This document shows, in pieces, positions 19,765-35,485 of a stretch of 36,343 nt of DNA. The stretch spans positions 1 to 36,343 of the IMG/VR virus record IMGVR_UViG_3300047276_000388. One strand, 5' to 3'. How positions within the stretch are numbered: the stretch's first letter is position 1; the number at the start of each line of letters is the position of its first letter. Under the pieces are notes generated by a model. It worked only from the letters and a program-made list of their open reading frames with translations, made no database searches and had not been told where the DNA came from. Made by a program: the position numbers and the translations under genes. The stretch comes from a virus.

Positions 19765-20099
19765 TGCCCCGCAATGAGCTTTCATCCGTCCCCGGCCAAC
19801 TCGATCTTCGCTTTCAGCAGGGCTCCCCGTTCTCTTTCCAGTTTCAGATGCCCGACGACCAGACCGGCTACACGTTCGCTGCTGAGATCCGGCGCTACCC
19901 GAAGGCCGACGACGTGGCCGCAGAGTTCGCCGTCGAGGTCGACGAGGTCGACGGAACACTGGTCACTGCAAGCCTTACGGCCGAGGACACGGCCGCGCTT
20001 ACCGGCACTGTGTACGCCTGGGGCCTCGAGCGGCTGGAGGACGACTTCGCCATCTTCGCCGGCACCGTCCGGGTTGAATCAGACGTGAGGCGCGCCTGA
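19764..20099 (+). CDS. Fibre-associated beta-sandwich structural protein
   Basis: A 111-residue protein. [40 protein letters not shown] and [13 protein letters not shown] match a short phage structural domain often encoded just before fibre genes, in which a first strand with F-x-F is followed by Y-x-W/D-L-E. It likely forms part of the tail fibre attachment. TGATG overlaps link it to the holin-like gene before it and the collagen-like gene after it. Exact role unknown. Confidence 0.6.
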
Positions 20100-21286
20100 T
20101 GCCCGACGTCGTCGTTGTCGAGACGCCAGGACTCGTCACCGTCGAGATCGCCGACGACCGGGTCGTCGAGGTCGGCATTGTCGCCGCTGGCCCTCCGGGC
20201 GCGATCGGCCCGCAGGGTCCGCAAGGGTCTACGGGTCCGCAGGGTGCGACGGGTGCGACCGGTGACACGGGCCCGGCCGGCGTTGCCGGGCCGCAGGGGC
20301 CAGCGGGCGTGACGGGGCCTGCCGGCGCGACCGGCGACACCGGGCCCGAGGGGGCACCGGGCGACACAGGCCCTCAGGGTCCGACAGGCGGGGTCGGCCC
20401 GCTAGGTCCCGCAGGCCCGCAGGGTCCCGCAGGCCCGCAGGGCGCGACCGGCGCAGACTCGACGGTGCCCGGGCCCACCGGGCCGCAGGGCGCCGCCGGT
20501 GCCACGGGTCCAGCTGGCCCCCAAGGCGTCGCCGGCCCGACCGGCCAAGAGGGTCCGCAAGGTGAGACGGGCCCGACGGGACCACAAGGCGCAGCTGGCG
20601 CGCAGGGAGATCCGGGGCCAACTGGCCCTCAAGGTGCCGTGGGCCCGGAAGGGGCGCAGGGCGCCCAGGGTCCGCAGGGGGCGGCTGGCCCGCAGGGACC
20701 GCAGGGCGCCGTTGGCGCGCAAGGCCCGGCGGGTCCCACAGGTGACACCGGTGCGCAGGGACCACAGGGGGCGACTGGTTCGCAGGGCGCTATCGGCCCA
20801 CAGGGCGCTGCTGGGGCAACAGGCGACACTGGCCAGCAGGGTTCTATGGGCCCACAGGGCGTGGTCGGGCCACAGGGTCCGCAAGGTGCAGCGGGTGCGA
20901 CTGGTGACACCGGCCCGCAAGGCTCTACTGGCCCGCAAGGTCCGCAGGGTAGTGCCGGTGCGACTGGGGACACGGGACCGCAGGGTGCGCAAGGTGCGAC
21001 CGGGGAGACAGGGCCACAAGGTCCGGATGGCCCAACCGGTGCAACTGGTGACACCGGTTTGCAAGGCGATACAGGTCCACAAGGCTCCGAGGGTGCGACT
21101 GGGGACACGGGACCGCAGGGTGCGACTGGTGCCACCGGCCCGCAAGGATCTATCGGCCCGCAGGGCGATACGGGTCCCCAAGGTGCGACTGGCCCGCAAG
21201 GCGCAGCTGGACCGCAGGGCGCTGTCGGTGCCGCAGCGAATCCAGAGGATGACCAGTACATCCTCGCCAACCGGGTGTTCAACTAG
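20099..21286 (+). CDS. Collagen-like tail fibre protein
   Basis: A 395-residue protein. Residues 1-30 form a non-collagen head ([18 protein letters not shown]) and about 31-379 are Gly-X-Y triplets rich in GPQ, GAT, GDT and GPA, forming a trimeric collagen-like rod. Without hydroxyproline, such phage rods are held by Gln, Thr and charged residues. One break occurs near [11 protein letters not shown], about residue 121, and would make a hinge. The end [15 protein letters not shown] is a short cap. The GC-rich repeats make recombination and length variation likely. It is followed by two small structural genes. Confidence 0.93.
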
Positions 21287-22712: not shown

Positions 22713-22812
22713 CCTAGAACGCTTGCTATTACAGGGTTATTAGGGGCCTGCAAAGCCCCGTACTTCCTGACCCTCGCTGGGGACCCCGGCGAGGGTCGTT
22801 TTGCGTTCTAGG
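22713..22812. repeat. 10-bp inverted repeat flanking the terminator region
   Basis: CCTAGAACGC at 22713-22722 and GCGTTCTAGG at 22803-22812 are perfect inverted copies 80 bases apart. The right copy overlaps the integrase stop codon. They may be integrase or excisionase binding sites, or chance. Confidence 0.4.
22769..22803 (+). terminator. Rho-independent terminator facing the integrase
   Basis: GACCCTCGC (22769-22777) and GCGAGGGTC (22789-22797) form a 9-bp GC-rich stem with an 11-base loop, followed by GTTTTG. It would stop plus-strand late transcription from running antisense through int. Confidence 0.8.
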
Positions 22813-23623
22813 CCACCGCCCGCACGGCGTCGACCGCCCGGGGCGACGAGAACTTGGCGTAGACCGCCGTGGTCGTCGGCGAGGCGTGCCCGAGCAGCGC
22901 CTGGGTGACGAGGATGTCGCCGGAGGCGTCGTGGACCCGGGTGCCGAACCGGTGGCGCAGCTGGTGCGCTGTCCAAGGCATCTCCAGTGCGGAGAAGTGG
23001 TTGTTGATGATCCGGGACACGTCGGCGGGGGAGTAGGGCAGACCGTTCTCCCGCCGGAACATCGGGCCCGTCCGGCTCGACCGGGGTAGGGCGTCGGCCA
23101 CCCGGGGATGGATGGGCACGAGGCGGTCCTTGCCGCCCTTGCCCCGCACCAGCAGCATCTCGCTGTCGACGAGCACGTCCTCGAGGTGCAAGCCGGCGAT
23201 CTCCATGCACCGAAGCCCAGCCCAGCCGCCGAGCACGAGCCACGTCCGCACCGGGTCGGCGGCGGCGGCGACGGCCGCCTCGAGGTCGGCGTCGGGGATG
23301 GGGCGGGGCAGCCCTTGGCGCACCTTCGGGCGCACCATCGCCACGGTCGGGTCGGCGGGCACCGTGTCGGGGTGGTGGATCACCGCCCACTCGTAGAACC
23401 GGTGCAGCGTCGAGATCCACAGGTACCGGGACTTCGGCCCAAGGTTGCGGGCGTCGAGGAACCGCTCAAGCTCGTCGCTGGTGAGCGTGGCGAGGTGGCG
23501 GTCGCCGAACCGCTGCATCGTCAGCTGTACCTTGTTACGGAATGAGTAGATCGTCCCCGGCGTGCAGTCACGGCGACGCAGGTGCTTCGTCCACTCGATC
23601 AGCAGCTCTTCATTAGTGCGCAC
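22808..23623 (-). CDS. Tyrosine recombinase integrase
   Basis: A 271-residue phage integrase that joins attP to a host attB and, with a directionality factor, excises the prophage. Catalytic residues are visible: R138 in GWAGLRCMEIAGL, K165 in GKGGKDRLVP, H220 and R223 in TAHQLRHRF, H246 in LLGHAS and nucleophile Y255 in TAVYAKF. Residues 1-90 are the SAM-like core-binding domain; there is no separate arm-binding N-terminal domain, so it is XerC/D-sized. GTG 23623 was chosen because AAGGAGG lies five bases before it. It is transcribed in the same direction as the repressor, 86 bases downstream of it. Confidence 0.93.
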   Translation of the reverse strand: MRTNEELLIEWTKHLRRRDCTPGTIYSFRNKVQLTMQRFGDRHLATLTSDELERFLDARNLGPKSRYLWISTLHRFYEWAVIHHPDTVPADPTVAMVRPKVRQGLPRPIPDADLEAAVAAAADPVRTWLVLGGWAGLRCMEIAGLHLEDVLVDSEMLLVRGKGGKDRLVPIHPRVADALPRSSRTGPMFRRENGLPYSPADVSRIINNHFSALEMPWTAHQLRHRFGTRVHDASGDILVTQALLGHASPTTTAVYAKFSSPRAVDAVRAVA

Positions 23624-23709
23624 TGTTGCCTCCTTGTCGAAAGGTGGCGAGCAACGTAGGTCGGTGCGCTCGATGGATGCCACCGTGTCGTTCGTCCGAT
23701 GCTGGGTGG

Positions 23710-24024
23710 TTAGGCGGCAACAGGCATGGCCCCGGAGCATCTACTTCTAGAACTGCCCTCGCGGGCAACCTTGCGGCCCCGGTTGCGCCGGATGCTCGGC
23801 TCCAGGGCGACCATGACCCGCAGGTCGACGTTGAGGGCGTCGGCCAGCCGCACGGCCTGCCAGAGGTCAGGGACTGACAGGTCCCGTTCCCACTTGCCGA
23901 TGAGCTGACGGGACGCTCCGCAGCGCTCCCCGAGCTGGGTCTGATCAAGCCCGAGCTCGTGCCGGCGCAGAAAGATCAACTCGCCGAGCGTGGTGTCGTT
24001 GAGCGGTGATGTAACCAGTGCCAT
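23710..24024 (-). CDS. Cro/CI-type repressor
   Basis: A 104-residue XRE-family DNA-binding protein. The HTH covers about 12-70: LGELIFLRRHELGLDQTQLG, then ERCGASRQLIGKWERDLSVP with the recognition helix near 37-46. The C-terminal 30 residues are basic (SIRRNRGRKVAREGSSRSRC) with no peptidase domain, so it lacks RecA-type self-cleavage. It diverges from an excisionase-like gene, with phased operator repeats between them. The start codon at 24022-24024 appears leaderless. It is the likely immunity repressor, though a role as a Cro-type switch is possible. Confidence 0.85.
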   Translation of the reverse strand: MALVTSPLNDTTLGELIFLRRHELGLDQTQLGERCGASRQLIGKWERDLSVPDLWQAVRLADALNVDLRVMVALEPSIRRNRGRKVAREGSSRSRCSGAMPVAA

Positions 24025-28340: not shown

Positions 28341-28568
28341 ATGAAGACGTTACTGACCACCGCCATCGTCGCCGCCCTCGCCCTGCTGGGCTGGGCGGTG
28401 GACCTCCTCGCCGGCCTCGAGCCGGTCGCCTTCCTCGCCACGCTGGTGCTCATCGCCCTGGCCGGCTGGGCGGGCATCATCTACGCCACGGCCCGCCAGG
28501 CCGACGCCGGGGCGGCCCGCCGCCGGCGTGACGCCGAGTTCGCCCGCCGTGCCCGGGTGGTTCGGTGA
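28341..28568 (+). CDS. Small two-span membrane protein
   Basis: A 75-residue protein with two hydrophobic helices, about 4-22 (LLTTAIVAALALLGWAVDLL) and 28-48 (PVAFLATLVLIALAGWAGII), and a strongly basic tail (RRRRDAEFARRARVVR), which would stay in the cytoplasm. CGGAG lies about ten bases upstream of the ATG. It directly precedes a WhiB gene with an overlapping stop. Function unknown; its position does not suggest a holin. Confidence 0.6.
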   Translation: MKTLLTTAIVAALALLGWAVDLLAGLEPVAFLATLVLIALAGWAGIIYATARQADAGAARRRRDAEFARRARVVR

Positions 28569-29116
28569 TGGCGGGGGAGCACGGCACGCCTCGTTCATTC
28601 CGCAGTGGGTGCCGCTGCAGCGAGTGTCATGCCGCCATTGCCGACTACCACCGGCGGAAGCGCGACAGGCAACGGGAACGCGCCCGAGCTCGACGTGAGT
28701 CACGGCGCATGAACGCCGTCGCCGACGTCGGGCTCCCTGCAGCGCCCGCTTTCGACACTTCGTGGATGGCGGCGGCGGCCTGCCGTGACGTCGACACCAG
28801 CGTCTTTTTCGCCAAGCAGCCGAAGGATCGACTGGTCGAAGCGGCGAAGCGCATCTGCGAAGGCTGCGAGGTCAGCCGGCAGTGCCTCAACTTCGCCATC
28901 GCTACTTGTGCCGTCGGCGTGTGGGGCGGCACCACTGCCGAGGAACGCCGCAAGCTGCGGCCCGACAGCATTTCCTGCGCTGACTGCGGGGAGCCGATGG
29001 CGTGGAAGTCGGTGAAGCACGTTCGCTGCGCCGAGTGCTACCCGGCCTACCGCCTGCAGCAGAAATACGGCTGGGACCACGAGGTCGGCAAGTTCCGCCA
29101 GGAGGCGTCGGCATGA
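28568..29116 (+). CDS. WhiB-like protein with extra N- and C-terminal zinc-type domains
   Basis: A 182-residue protein in three parts. Residues 6-40 (HGTPRSFRSGCRCSECHAAI plus a basic helix) resemble a short Cys-rich DNA-binding unit. Residues 68-130 are the WhiB domain, with the four cluster cysteines C72, C97, C100 and C106, then GVWGG at 117-121 and a basic end. Residues 135-160 are a zinc ribbon (C137, C140, C154, C157). WhiB proteins carry an iron-sulphur cluster and bind the main sigma factor. Phage copies can interfere with host WhiB2 and block division or superinfection. The three-part fusion is unusual. Confidence 0.85.
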   Translation: MAGEHGTPRSFRSGCRCSECHAAIADYHRRKRDRQRERARARRESRRMNAVADVGLPAAPAFDTSWMAAAACRDVDTSVFFAKQPKDRLVEAAKRICEGCEVSRQCLNFAIATCAVGVWGGTTAEERRKLRPDSISCADCGEPMAWKSVKHVRCAECYPAYRLQQKYGWDHEVGKFRQEASA

Positions 29117-31844: not shown

Positions 31845-32103
31845 CGACGTTCGTTTCGCAATAACGAGAGACATTTTGGACCGCTTGCACTGGTCATTCG
31901 ATGACGCATTGAGCGGCGGTCAAGTGGATCCAAAGCTGCTAGATGATGCAGCCAACGACATTGAGTGGTTGCGCTCAATAGTGGTCGCCATTCTGAATGG
32001 ACCATTTTCGGGCACGTCTACTGAACGACGCGCCCGTTACGCCGATCCCTCCTGGCAACAGGTTCATGACGCAGTGGACATGTGGGAGCGCAGCCGTGAC
32101 TGA
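31837..32103 (+). CDS. Small protein with VTDD start and AANDIEWLR motif
   Basis: An 88-residue protein starting VTDDVRFAITRDILDRLHW and carrying KLLDDAANDIEWLRSIVVAI at about 48-67. This start-plus-helix layout belongs to a loose family of small phage proteins (ITDxLR ... AADEIERLR). It is a likely paralogue of the next gene. The DNA is distinctly AT-richer than the flanks, suggesting recent arrival from elsewhere. GTG 31837 overlaps the previous gene by eight bases. Function unknown. Confidence 0.6.
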   Translation: MTDDVRFAITRDILDRLHWSFDDALSGGQVDPKLLDDAANDIEWLRSIVVAILNGPFSGTSTERRARYADPSWQQVHDAVDMWERSRD

Positions 32104-32413
32104 CGACATCGTTCAGCGGCTCCGCCAGTGGACCCCGGCCGATTGCTGGGCGTGCGACAGCGCGGCGTGCTGGAACAGGACGCCAGCGGACCGCTGGACG
32201 TGTGAAAGCCCAGAATGCTGGAACAGCGTGACCCCTTCGTGCGAGTGCACCTGCCACATCCACTTCGGCAAGGAAGCAGCCGACGAGATCGAGCGGCTGC
32301 GGGCGGAGGTTGCGCGACTTGAAGAGTCAGCGGGCAATTGGGGTTTGCCGACTTTCGATCAGATCCTCGAGGCACTGCAATCACCAGCTGACAACCGGGG
32401 GCGTGGCAGGTGA
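32096..32413 (+). CDS. Cys-rich protein with a duplicated 16-residue unit
   Basis: A 105-residue protein. It begins VTDDIVQRLRQ like the upstream gene and has the same later helix (AADEIERLRAEVARLEE, about 61-77). Between them is an insert with two tandem 16-residue units, WTPADCWACDSAACWN (12-27) and RTPADRWTCESPECWN (28-43), then CECTCHIHFG. Cysteines and histidines could bind one or two zinc ions. It looks like the simple family protein with a duplicated metal-binding insertion. GTG 32096 overlaps the previous stop by eight bases. Confidence 0.65.
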   Translation: MTDDIVQRLRQWTPADCWACDSAACWNRTPADRWTCESPECWNSVTPSCECTCHIHFGKEAADEIERLRAEVARLEESAGNWGLPTFDQILEALQSPADNRGRGR

Positions 32414-32541
32414 GCGGCTACGACGACTGGCTGGCAGCGCCCTACGACGACGCCCCCGAGTGCCCCGACGGCTGCGGCGAGGACTGGTGCAGCTGCGCCG
32501 AGGCCCTCGCCGACCAGCGGGCTGAGGAGGCGGCGGAGTGA
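32410..32541 (+). CDS. Very small acidic Cys-rich protein
   Basis: A 43-residue protein with PECPDGCGEDWCSCAEAL, five cysteines counting the close pair, and an acidic helix at the end (ADQRAEEAAE). It starts GTG 32410 within the previous stop and overlaps the replication gene start. It may bind zinc. The tight coupling to the prim-pol gene suggests a replication accessory role, but this is only inference. Confidence 0.5.
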   Translation: MSGYDDWLAAPYDDAPECPDGCGEDWCSCAEALADQRAEEAAE

Positions 32542-35213
32542 TCCACCCGACCCTCGCCGCCGCCCTCACCTACATCGACCAGGGCTGGCGGGTCATCCCG
32601 ATCCGGCCCGGGGAGAAGCGCCCCGCCCTCGCCGCCTGGCAGGACGCCGCCACGCTCGACCCCGACCTCGCCACCGACTGGTTCACCCGCTGGGCCGACC
32701 ACGGGGTCGGGATCGCCTGCGGGGAGGCGTCGGGGCTGTTCGTCATCGACGTCGACAACGCCAAGGGCAAGGTGGGGGACCGCACCCTCGCCGAGCTGGA
32801 GGCGAAGTACGGCCCGCTGCCGGAGACCCACACCGTGCGCACCGGCTCAGGCGGCTGGCACTTCTACTTCCGCTTCGACCTCACCCGGCCGCTGCGCAAC
32901 GGCGTGCTCGGCCCCGACATTGACATCCGGGGCGAGGGCGGGCAGGTGCTGGCGCCGCCGACGATTCATCCGACGACAGGGCAGCCGTACCTCGTCCACC
33001 TCGACGTGCCCGTCGCCGACGCCCCCGAGTGGGTGTACGACATCCTCCTCGCCCCGGCCCCGGCGCCTGCCTCAGCCCCGGCGCAGCCGGCGGGCAGCCA
33101 GGGCGAGGACGGCCCGGCCCAGCGGTACAACGAGGCGACGACGTGGGAGGAGCTGCTCACGGCCGACGGCTGGACGCTGCACCACGTCGACCGCTCCGGC
33201 GAGGCCCACTGGACCCGGCCCGGCAAGGACAAGCGGGACGGGACCAGCGCCACGACGAACTACGAGGGCCGGGACTGCCTCGTCGTGTTCACCTCGAGCG
33301 TGCCCGCCCTGGAGCCGAACAAGGCGTACTCCCGCTTCGGGTACTACGCCGCCACCCGCCACGGCGGCGACCGCAGCGCCGCCGCTGCGCAGCTGCGCAG
33401 CGAGGGGTACACGCCCGACCTTGTCAGTTGGATTGAGCAGCCGACCGTCGTGCCGGCCGCCCTTGACCCCGACACCGGCGAGGTCGTCGACGACGACGCC
33501 TGGGAGGAACCGATCCCGCTGGGCCTCGGCGTGCGGGAGTTGCCCTCGTTCCCTGTTGACGTGTTCCCCGACTGGCTCGCCGAGCATGTCACGGCGGTGG
33601 CGGCCGACATCCAGGTGCCCATCGACCTGCCGGCCACCATCGCCCTGGCGGCCCTCGCCGCAGTCTCGGCCCGGTACATCGAGGTCGAGGCCGACAGCTG
33701 GGTGACGCACACGAACCTGTACCTCGTCGTCGCCAGCCCGCCCGGGCAGGGCAAGTCGCCGGTGTTCTCGGCGATGGTCTCGTGTATCGAGGAGTTGCAG
33801 GCCGACCTCGCCGTCAGCCTCGGCCCCGCCATCGCCCAGGCCGAGCTCACCCGTCGGGTCGCAGAGAAGCAGGCCCGCAAGGCCGAGGAGCGCGGCGACG
33901 CCGACGAGGCGTGGATTCACTACCAGACGGCGCTCGCCGTCGACGTGCCCCGCACCCCACGTCTGATCGCCGACGACGCCACGCCCGAGGCGCTGACCAA
34001 GCTCCTGAGCGAGAACGCCGGCCGCATGGCGGTCATGTCAAGCGAGGGCGGGGTGTTCGACCTCATGACCGGGAAGTACTCCGACCGGGCGAATCTCGAG
34101 GTGTACCTCAAGGCCTGGTCGGGCGACACCATCCAGGTGGACCGCATCAACCGGGAGCCCGAGTACGTCCGCAAGCCGGCGCTGACCATCGGGCTCACCG
34201 TGCAGCCCATGGTCATCCAGCGCCTCGCCAACAAGCCGGAGCTCGCCGGCCGGGGACTGACCGCCCGGTTCATGTACGCACTGCCGCCGTCCAACGTCGG
34301 CTACCGGGACATGACCAAGCGGCGAGCGAACCGCAAGGCGCAGCAGCGGGCCTACGACGCCGCCCTCGTCGACCTGTACCGCCGGCTCTCCAGCTACCAG
34401 AACCCGGGCCGCCTCTCGCTCAGCGAGGACGACATGGACCGGTTCGCCCACTGGCGGCAGAGCATCGAGGTGCGCCGGGCCGAGGGCGGCGACCTGCACC
34501 CCATGGCCGAGTGGTCGACCAAGCTGGAGGCGTCGGTGCTGCGGCTGGCCGGGCTGCTGCACCTGGCGCACGGCGGCGCCCACCACGGCACCGTCGACCC
34601 GGGAGCGCTCGACCTGGCGCTCATCGTCGCCGACTACTGGATCGAGCACGCCTTCGCCGTGCACGACCTGTGGGGCACCGACGACACCTTGGCCGGCGCC
34701 CGCGTCATCCTCGCCTGGCTGTCCCGGGAGAACCGGGCCACGTTCACCCCGTCGGACGTCCAGAAGAAGCTGCGCAGCCAGTTCAACCGCATCGCCGACA
34801 CCGTCGAGCCGCTGAAGCTGCTGGTCGAGCGGGGCTGGATCAGGCCGACCTTCGACGGGCCCATTGAGGTGGGGCGCCGGGGCAAGCCCAGCTCGGTGTT
34901 CGCCTTCCACCCCAGCGCCCGCCCTGTGGATAACCACACCGGCCGTGGCGTGGTGTCTCGCGAATGGCGCACAACTTCAACATCGCTAGAGGAAGTTTCG
35001 CGTCATTCGCGTCATTCGCGTAAAGGGGAATCTGGGCCACTCACTCTCTCTGTACAGGCCCCCATGGACGGGGTACCCCCCGCGAATGACGCGAATGAGA
35101 CACAACTCGCCAATCCACAGGTTTCCGTGCCCGAGCCTGACGACGACCCGCCGGCGGAGCCCTACGCCGGCCCGCTGCCCGAGCCCGAGCCCGACCTGTC
35201 GGGGCTGTTCTGA
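32538..35213 (+). CDS. Primase-polymerase/DUF3987 helicase-like replication protein
   Basis: An 891-residue protein. Residues 1-175 are a bifunctional primase/polymerase domain with DVD at 71-73, H108 in GSGGWHFYF and DIDIRGEGGQVLAPP at 127-141. An Ala/Pro linker follows, then a middle segment (about 195-300) and the DUF3987 ATPase, with P-loop ASPPGQGKS near 399-407 and MSSEGGVFDLMTGKYSDRA near 503-521. The last 95 residues (from about 795) are low complexity, with SRHSRHSRKG and ANDANE, and are probably disordered. This is the main replisome protein, able to prime and probably unwind. Its 3' end contains a candidate origin. GTG 32538 overlaps the previous stop. Confidence 0.88.
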   Translation: MIHPTLAAALTYIDQGWRVIPIRPGEKRPALAAWQDAATLDPDLATDWFTRWADHGVGIACGEASGLFVIDVDNAKGKVGDRTLAELEAKYGPLPETHTVRTGSGGWHFYFRFDLTRPLRNGVLGPDIDIRGEGGQVLAPPTIHPTTGQPYLVHLDVPVADAPEWVYDILLAPAPAPASAPAQPAGSQGEDGPAQRYNEATTWEELLTADGWTLHHVDRSGEAHWTRPGKDKRDGTSATTNYEGRDCLVVFTSSVPALEPNKAYSRFGYYAATRHGGDRSAAAAQLRSEGYTPDLVSWIEQPTVVPAALDPDTGEVVDDDAWEEPIPLGLGVRELPSFPVDVFPDWLAEHVTAVAADIQVPIDLPATIALAALAAVSARYIEVEADSWVTHTNLYLVVASPPGQGKSPVFSAMVSCIEELQADLAVSLGPAIAQAELTRRVAEKQARKAEERGDADEAWIHYQTALAVDVPRTPRLIADDATPEALTKLLSENAGRMAVMSSEGGVFDLMTGKYSDRANLEVYLKAWSGDTIQVDRINREPEYVRKPALTIGLTVQPMVIQRLANKPELAGRGLTARFMYALPPSNVGYRDMTKRRANRKAQQRAYDAALVDLYRRLSSYQNPGRLSLSEDDMDRFAHWRQSIEVRRAEGGDLHPMAEWSTKLEASVLRLAGLLHLAHGGAHHGTVDPGALDLALIVADYWIEHAFAVHDLWGTDDTLAGARVILAWLSRENRATFTPSDVQKKLRSQFNRIADTVEPLKLLVERGWIRPTFDGPIEVGRRGKPSSVFAFHPSARPVDNHTGRGVVSREWRTTSTSLEEVSRHSRHSRKGESGPLTLSVQAPMDGVPPANDANETQLANPQVSVPEPDDDPPAEPYAGPLPEPEPDLSGLF
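34925..35119. other. Candidate replication origin inside the replication gene
   Basis: TGTGGATAA at 34925-34933 is the reverse complement of the consensus DnaA box TTATCCACA. CAATCCACA at 35111-35119 matches it at 7 of 9 positions. TCATTCGCG occurs twice in tandem (35003-35020) and inverted as CGCGAATGA twice in tandem (35081-35098), a perfect 18-bp inverted repeat around 60 bases. CGCGAATGG lies at 34959. A relatively AT-rich stretch sits at 34971-35000 and the palindrome GGGGTACCCC at 35070-35079. Confidence 0.6.
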
Positions 35214-35257: not shown

Positions 35258-35485
35258 GTGACCTGGCTCAAGCGAGCAGCGTGCCGAGGCCTCCCGGCCC
35301 ACTGGTGGTACCCGCCGTCACCCATCACCACCGAGGCGACGGTGAACCTGCGCAAAGCGAAAGCGCTCTGCGCCGGGTGCGAGGTGCGCTTGGAGTGCCT
35401 CAAGGCCGGCATGGACGAGGACTACGGGCTCTGGGGTGGCGTCAGCCCGAAGGCCCGGCGCCGGATGCGGAAGGCGGCGAGCTGA
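35258..35485 (+). CDS. Short WhiB-like protein
   Basis: A 75-residue protein with the four WhiB cysteines C9, C38, C41 and C47 (AACRG, LCAGCEVRLEC) and the GLWGG turn near 57-61, followed by a basic tail (SPKARRRMRKAAS). It is a minimal WhiB protein expected to carry a [4Fe-4S] cluster and to act on the host main sigma factor or on host WhiB functions. The start is GTG 35258. It is the second WhiB in the window and differs from the first by lacking flanking domains. The HNH gene starts in its stop codon. Confidence 0.88.
   Translation: MTWLKRAACRGLPAHWWYPPSPITTEATVNLRKAKALCAGCEVRLECLKAGMDEDYGLWGGVSPKARRRMRKAAS

Follow-up and report, generated by a model that had tools for sequence, protein, structure and literature searches.

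The last ~290 bp of a Prim-Pol/DUF3987 gene very probably contain the replication origin of the phage described here, a reading for which there are no binding, replication or read-depth data. We observe that the tail of this gene contains a nonrandom set of sites, that relatives have the same architecture with diverging repeat units, and that the DNA is conserved independently of the reading frame. The organisation is best read as that of a PICI/SaPI origin, embedded here in a reading frame and with host DnaA as a helper. An earlier note had proposed an origin in this 3′ coding tail, and the relatives support that proposal.

The window, by which we mean the whole stretch of 36,343 nucleotides that was analysed, is the 36.3-kb record of a temperate tailed phage. 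Genes for an exonuclease, a WhiB protein, an SNF2-type helicase and a DNA methyltransferase are followed by the Prim-Pol/DUF3987 gene. The relevant features are as follows.

1–21 kb: genes for terminase, portal, major head, tape measure and tail fibre
22808–23740, minus strand: integrase gene
32538–35213, plus strand: Prim-Pol/DUF3987 gene (891 aa), presumed initiator primase-helicase, with the putative origin at its 3′ end
32562–33032, plus strand: Prim-Pol domain, residues 9–165 (Pfam PF09250, E 3e-45)
33612–34661, plus strand: DUF3987 domain, residues 359–708 (Pfam PF13148, E 1e-83), with a predicted MCM-type AAA+ fold
34683–34907, plus strand: predicted C-terminal winged helix, residues ~716–790 (secondary structure HHH-beta-wing-beta), presumed iteron-binding domain
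34925–34933, minus strand: perfect DnaA box TTATCCACA, the sole perfect copy in 36 kb
34959–34967, minus strand: degenerate single iteron CCATTCGCG, one mismatch, oriented like array 2
34997–35021, plus strand: iteron array 1, a period-9 run with two perfect copies of TCATTCGCG at 35003–35020 and a partial copy before them
35021–35080: spacer of 60 nt, candidate melting region, 37% AT against 29% in the gene
35038–35051, plus strand: CT-rich period-4 tract CACTCACTCTCTCT in the spacer; similar tracts occur in relatives
35081–35098, minus strand: iteron array 2, two perfect copies of TCATTCGCG, inverted relative to array 1
35111–35119, plus strand: weak DnaA-like box CAATCCACA, 7/9 to consensus

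Three further observations concern neighbouring or more distant genes. The phage encodes two WhiB-family regulators (28565–29116 and 35258–35485), the latter directly after the replication gene. A small ORF just upstream of the primase-helicase gene (31997–32413) has a repeated Cys/Trp-rich motif (CWACDSAACWN / RWTCESPECWN) and no Pfam family, and the tail-fibre ORF (20099–21286) matches many tail-fibre families, collagen-like minor tail proteins included.

The candidate origin sits after the winged helix, which ends at ~34907, and before the stop at 35213, within the ORF. The earlier note had listed a perfect DnaA box, two tandem 9-mers with two inverted copies 60 nt away, a weaker DnaA-like box on the far side and the peptides SRHSRHS and ANDANE from the repeats, and every one of these could be located. 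All four exact copies of the 9-mer TCATTCGCG in the record lie in this tail, and five of the six matches with at most one mismatch fall inside 140 bp. Only one place in the window combines a tandem repeat of at least 8/9 with an inverted one of at least 16/18, and any tandem plus inverted array of that criterion appeared in just 1 of 60 order-3 Markov windows. Additionally, DnaA-box matches with at most one mismatch number 6 in the window against 1.3 expected, and the core ATCCACAGG of the weak DnaA-like box exactly complements CCTGTGGAT in the first DnaA box. With one perfect and one 7/9 box, the tail does not amount to an oriC-like cluster of several DnaA boxes. GC skew is uninformative on the origin, because the genes of this arm are unidirectional and the record continues for just another 1.1 kb.

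Comparison of related 3′ ends was the check named beforehand, and it came out strongly positive, with 9-mer arrays kept and their units diverging. We fetched 80 loci each from viruses and from bacterial genomes, and a further 78 viral loci at a later stage. A whole-protein scan of viral contigs found no relatives, and an alignment-based query was required. Loci were selected by conserved peptide patterns, not at random, and the thresholds used for arrays overlook degenerate ones (e.g., L130, L055) as well as 8-bp spacing. In the closest clade, actinophages at 35–51% identity, inverted tandem 9-mers with diverging units are present in 90% of 21 dereplicated tails. Elsewhere they occur in 45% of tails from bacterial genomes (n = 51) and 48% of those from other viruses (n = 46), and the controls of these three groups yielded none inside genes and none in shuffled tails. 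Across 102 dereplicated tails, 51% have inverted tandem 9-mers of at least 15/18 (1% in-gene, 0% downstream), and 40% have period-9 runs, compared with 6% inside the same genes and 0% at 1.2 kb downstream. Period 18, in 17% of tails, is a harmonic of 9; period 21 is somewhat in excess (21%), and period 4, less strongly enriched, probably reflects the spacer tract.

The iteron units vary by element. The nearest relatives have units like GCGCATGAC; others are CGCGCAACC, CGTGTCG(T/C)C, CCGCAGAAA in Streptomyces, and GGACAAAAA and TGACAAAAG in AT-rich loci of Firmicutes type, a label that we infer from their composition and from Streptococcus phage Javan191. Among the distant DUF3987 relatives found first, repeats spaced at 9 bp follow the stop codon (GTGACAAAA twice; CTGACAGAA twice with inverted partners), and a Tsukamurella plasmid has three copies of GGACAGAAG in its coding tail. 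Individual plasmids of Legionella, Bartonella and Pseudomonas putida contain 9-bp repeats 3′ of the gene and a Parabacteroides plasmid has repeats at 8-bp spacing, and one Citrobacter IncHI plasmid has none. Overall, inverted 9-bp arrays, mostly post-stop, accompany about half of the more distant DUF3987 genes; by this criterion about half lack them.

Some relatives are organised differently. Integrative elements of Nonomuraea and Herbidospora (L091–L103) have helix-turn-helix and integrase-like genes directly after the DUF3987 stop and no 9-bp array, so their origin must be elsewhere or of a different kind. In Streptomyces-type elements (L008:4508-4760; post-stop in L105, L106, L155 and L158) the iteron sets are oppositely oriented around a GC-rich centre of ~47 nt, and inverted repeats there reach 38 nt; because of this orientation and centre, at least two layouts exist. 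The collections searched contained no close cultured member of the actinophage clade, with protein matches only distant, and tail DNA gave only short, weak matches to sequenced phages. The exact 18-mer was found in three viral contigs, none with a DUF3987 match. Two of these matches lie in portal/structural-type genes, and the third contig, a prophage record (L005:5198-5299), has GCGAATGAC, which equals the 9-mer of the window, three times in tandem plus one distant copy, upstream of an AlpA-like gene. We thus regard the matches as coincidence or another system.

Could the repeats simply encode a low-complexity protein tail of tripeptide repeats with a function of its own? Both arrays of the window are in frame, as this explanation would have it. 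However, relatives read one DNA unit in more than one frame and on either strand, and relatives have arrays that lie partly or wholly beyond the stop. One gene (L184) reads a single iteron unit in two frames, as PCAPCAH and RHARHAR. L177, a sister phage and clade member with a short frame, has two iteron copies before the stop and six after it, and L178 has degenerate copies post-stop. The iterons are coding in most clade members, and in most distant relatives the arrays are wholly noncoding. The DnaA boxes of the clade, for their part, encode four different peptides depending on strand and frame (PVDN/PVDK, LYPQ, LIHS/VIHS or LSTV), and the box of L021 is noncoding. Because frames and strands vary, the box peptides differ and arrays occur post-stop in relatives, peptide conservation is excluded as the cause, and a functional protein tail is barely conceivable. 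The earlier suggestion that DNA rather than protein is being selected thus holds, since iterons that are coding in most clade members lie mostly post-stop in L177.

The same tails bear on the proposed involvement of host DnaA. The perfect box TTATCCACA is present in 10 of 24 clade tails (13 boxes; p ~1e-13, given 0.012 boxes expected per tail, as estimated from these loci beyond their tails), and none of 500 letter-shuffled 9-mers had more than one match in these tails, against 13 for the DnaA box. We found no perfect box in 93 more distant tails. The recurrence of the box supports an involvement of DnaA within this clade, which need not be general.

Between the arrays, the spacer measures 60–62 nt in the window and several close relatives, with a median of 69 across 18 coding-tail loci. 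Its AT content exceeds that of the gene in 17 of 18 members of the coding-tail clade (48.0% vs 37.1%, p=1.5e-5) and reaches 64–84% in most Firmicutes-type loci; in the window it is only mildly AT-rich, and the CT tract there scores modestly (7). By eye, many clade spacers start with a run of purines (GTAAGGGGGGAAT-like), after which come CT-rich or other microsatellites of period 2 to 4 (CTCTCTCT, CTTCTTCTT, ACTTACTTACTT, ACATACATACAT, TCTCTCTC), as in the tails of L010, L013, L016, L172, L184, L187 and L195 and in the tract of the window. Such a microsatellite is perhaps a melting or single-strand binding region. An automated tract score of at least 8 was reached by 67% of tails against 29–33% of controls, an excess that is not clean because some top-scoring tracts fall outside the spacer.

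Inverted arms around a spacer could also fold, either as an attenuator or terminator in mRNA or as extruded DNA in a stem-loop origin like that of the plasmid pRN1. The segment does fold better than its shuffles (z −4.9 as DNA, −4.3 as RNA), and its arm and loop sizes resemble those of the pRN1 origin (21-nt stem, 58-nt loop; PMC4234260). A hairpin, however, requires neither tandem 9-bp periodicity nor unequal copy numbers on the two sides. Moreover, we found no T-run or terminator-like site on the plus strand at the arrays, an Rfam search of the site returned no RNA family, and the arrays precede the stop codon of the gene. We consider a hairpin very unlikely as the explanation, and one made of DNA within an origin would still be an origin. 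Double-stranded iterons are the more likely form, because the tandem copy number is unequal between the sides and the length of the spacer is variable.

A further possibility is that the arrays are an operator, or an incompatibility or copy-control site, for the same protein or another phage regulator, and that replication starts elsewhere. Iterons often have a control role besides initiation, and more genes follow directly downstream, beginning with WhiB at 35258. Against this, no promoter-like site was found at the arrays, and two-sided arrays around an AT-enriched spacer with recurrent DnaA boxes fit initiation better. We judge a pure control site unlikely and retain the origin as the preferred reading.

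The predicted structure of the gene product is compatible with the role of an initiator. The DUF3987 part with the C-terminus was modelled at a mean pLDDT of 93.3, and the DUF3987 core aligns with an archaeal MCM (6mii_A) at a VIA Z of 17.8 over 267 residues and 3.6 Å. Among the Foldseek matches listed, the top ones are MCM chains; a PDB sequence search with DUF3987 gave no significant match. Supported by structure prediction only, the core appears to be an MCM-type AAA+ fold followed by a winged helix, and hexameric helicase activity is inferred. DUF3987 had earlier been predicted as a helicase (PMC5862659).

The winged helix itself (the last ~75 modelled residues), modelled alone, reached a pLDDT of 75 and a VIA Z of 8–9.6 to winged helices including that of MCM4, and Pfam assigned no family to the segment. 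Because the C-terminal domains of SaPI Rep and Cch2 bind their origins (PMC7581432), we infer that the iterons are probably bound through this putative domain; binding data are lacking. Across 64 loci, iteron distance follows protein distance (r 0.67–0.69). The partial correlation with iteron distance is 0.115 for the winged helix, no stronger than the 0.277 for the helicase, so we claim no co-evolution specific to the winged helix. Since iteron divergence follows the whole protein and not this domain specifically, the binding domain is only inferred. In one pair, L020/L021, the winged helices differ by 28% and the helicases by 10% (p=0.0002), which is suggestive, but other pairs do not show this.

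Weak matches of the winged helix include plasmid centromere-binding proteins, and short repeats are also typical of partition, recombination and packaging sites. Yet the arrays are constantly linked to a replication gene across phages, plasmids and integrated elements, and the integrase is encoded 11 kb from the iteron site. A role in any of these three processes is thus highly improbable.

For the origin, we propose a mechanism in which every step is inferred. The gene product would occupy both sets of inverted 9-bp iterons, and a pair of helicase rings would load, one at each side of the 60-nt spacer with its AT enrichment and CT tract. The spacer would then melt, with host DnaA at the flanking box assisting melting or loading. 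Helicase could be loaded in both directions, with which the inverted arrangement is consistent, and the Prim-Pol domain may prime the exposed strands.

Origins inside initiator genes have precedent, as gene O of phage lambda carries its own iterons in coding sequence, and the novelty of the present site is limited in this respect. The likeness to lambda O that had been suggested extends to iterons inside an initiator gene and stops there: Pfam finds only Prim-Pol and DUF3987 and no O-family protein. The phage site also differs from lambda ori in its repeats, its two inverted sets and its DnaA box. Lambda O recruits the host helicase, whereas the phage initiator would be Prim-Pol and MCM-like helicase itself.

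Closer parallels come from satellites and plasmids. The PICI/SaPI origin likewise lies directly 3′ of the initiator helicase domains (PMC6092414; Ubeda et al. via PMC7581432), and the initiator has a C-terminal DNA-binding domain like the one predicted here (PMC6092414, PMC7581432). Unlike PICI/SaPI, the phage places the putative origin inside the initiator ORF, with a perfect DnaA box, 9-bp inverted units and a DUF3987 helicase; unlike PICI satellites, it has its own virion genes, and the array design is found with DUF3987 initiators in complete phages as well as in plasmids and integrative elements. In SCCmec Cch2/CCPol-MP, the C-terminal domain of an initiator helicase paired, as here, with a primase-polymerase binds direct repeats just downstream of the gene; that system differs in having 5-nt intergenic iterons and separate polypeptides, and no two-sided 9-bp inverted array is described (PMC7581432). 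In pRN1, the gene for the prim-pol/helicase/winged-helix protein orf904 is followed directly on its 3′ side by an inverted element of ~100 nt that is essential, but this element is reported as a noncoding stem-loop without iterons, with an SF3 helicase and on an archaeal plasmid (PMC4234260).

A full-text search limited to open-licence papers found no published origin for DUF3987 replicons. Phages, satellites, plasmids and integrative elements commonly carry DUF3987 (YfjI) genes. We lean toward a joint reading, probable rather than established, in which DUF3987 proteins are a widespread family of initiator helicases resembling MCM, and a single origin design is common to their replicons, be these phages, plasmids or integrative elements, across several phyla. 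At the 3′ end of the gene, a spacer would be flanked by inverted groups of ~9-bp iterons whose unit sequences diversify rapidly, and one actinophage lineage would have a coding version that includes host DnaA boxes and a CT-rich tract. With the origin folded into the coding sequence of its initiator, the DNA would be under dual constraint.

The MCM-type fold, as predicted, is a useful annotation for a large family of unknown function. A simple search of the 3′ ends of DUF3987 genes for inverted 9-bp arrays would locate origins in many uncultured elements and supply testable pairs of initiator and iteron. The coding-tail clade, if read correctly, offers a clear example from nature of one DNA segment serving both as an origin and as protein-coding sequence, and it connects host DnaA with an MCM-like phage helicase.
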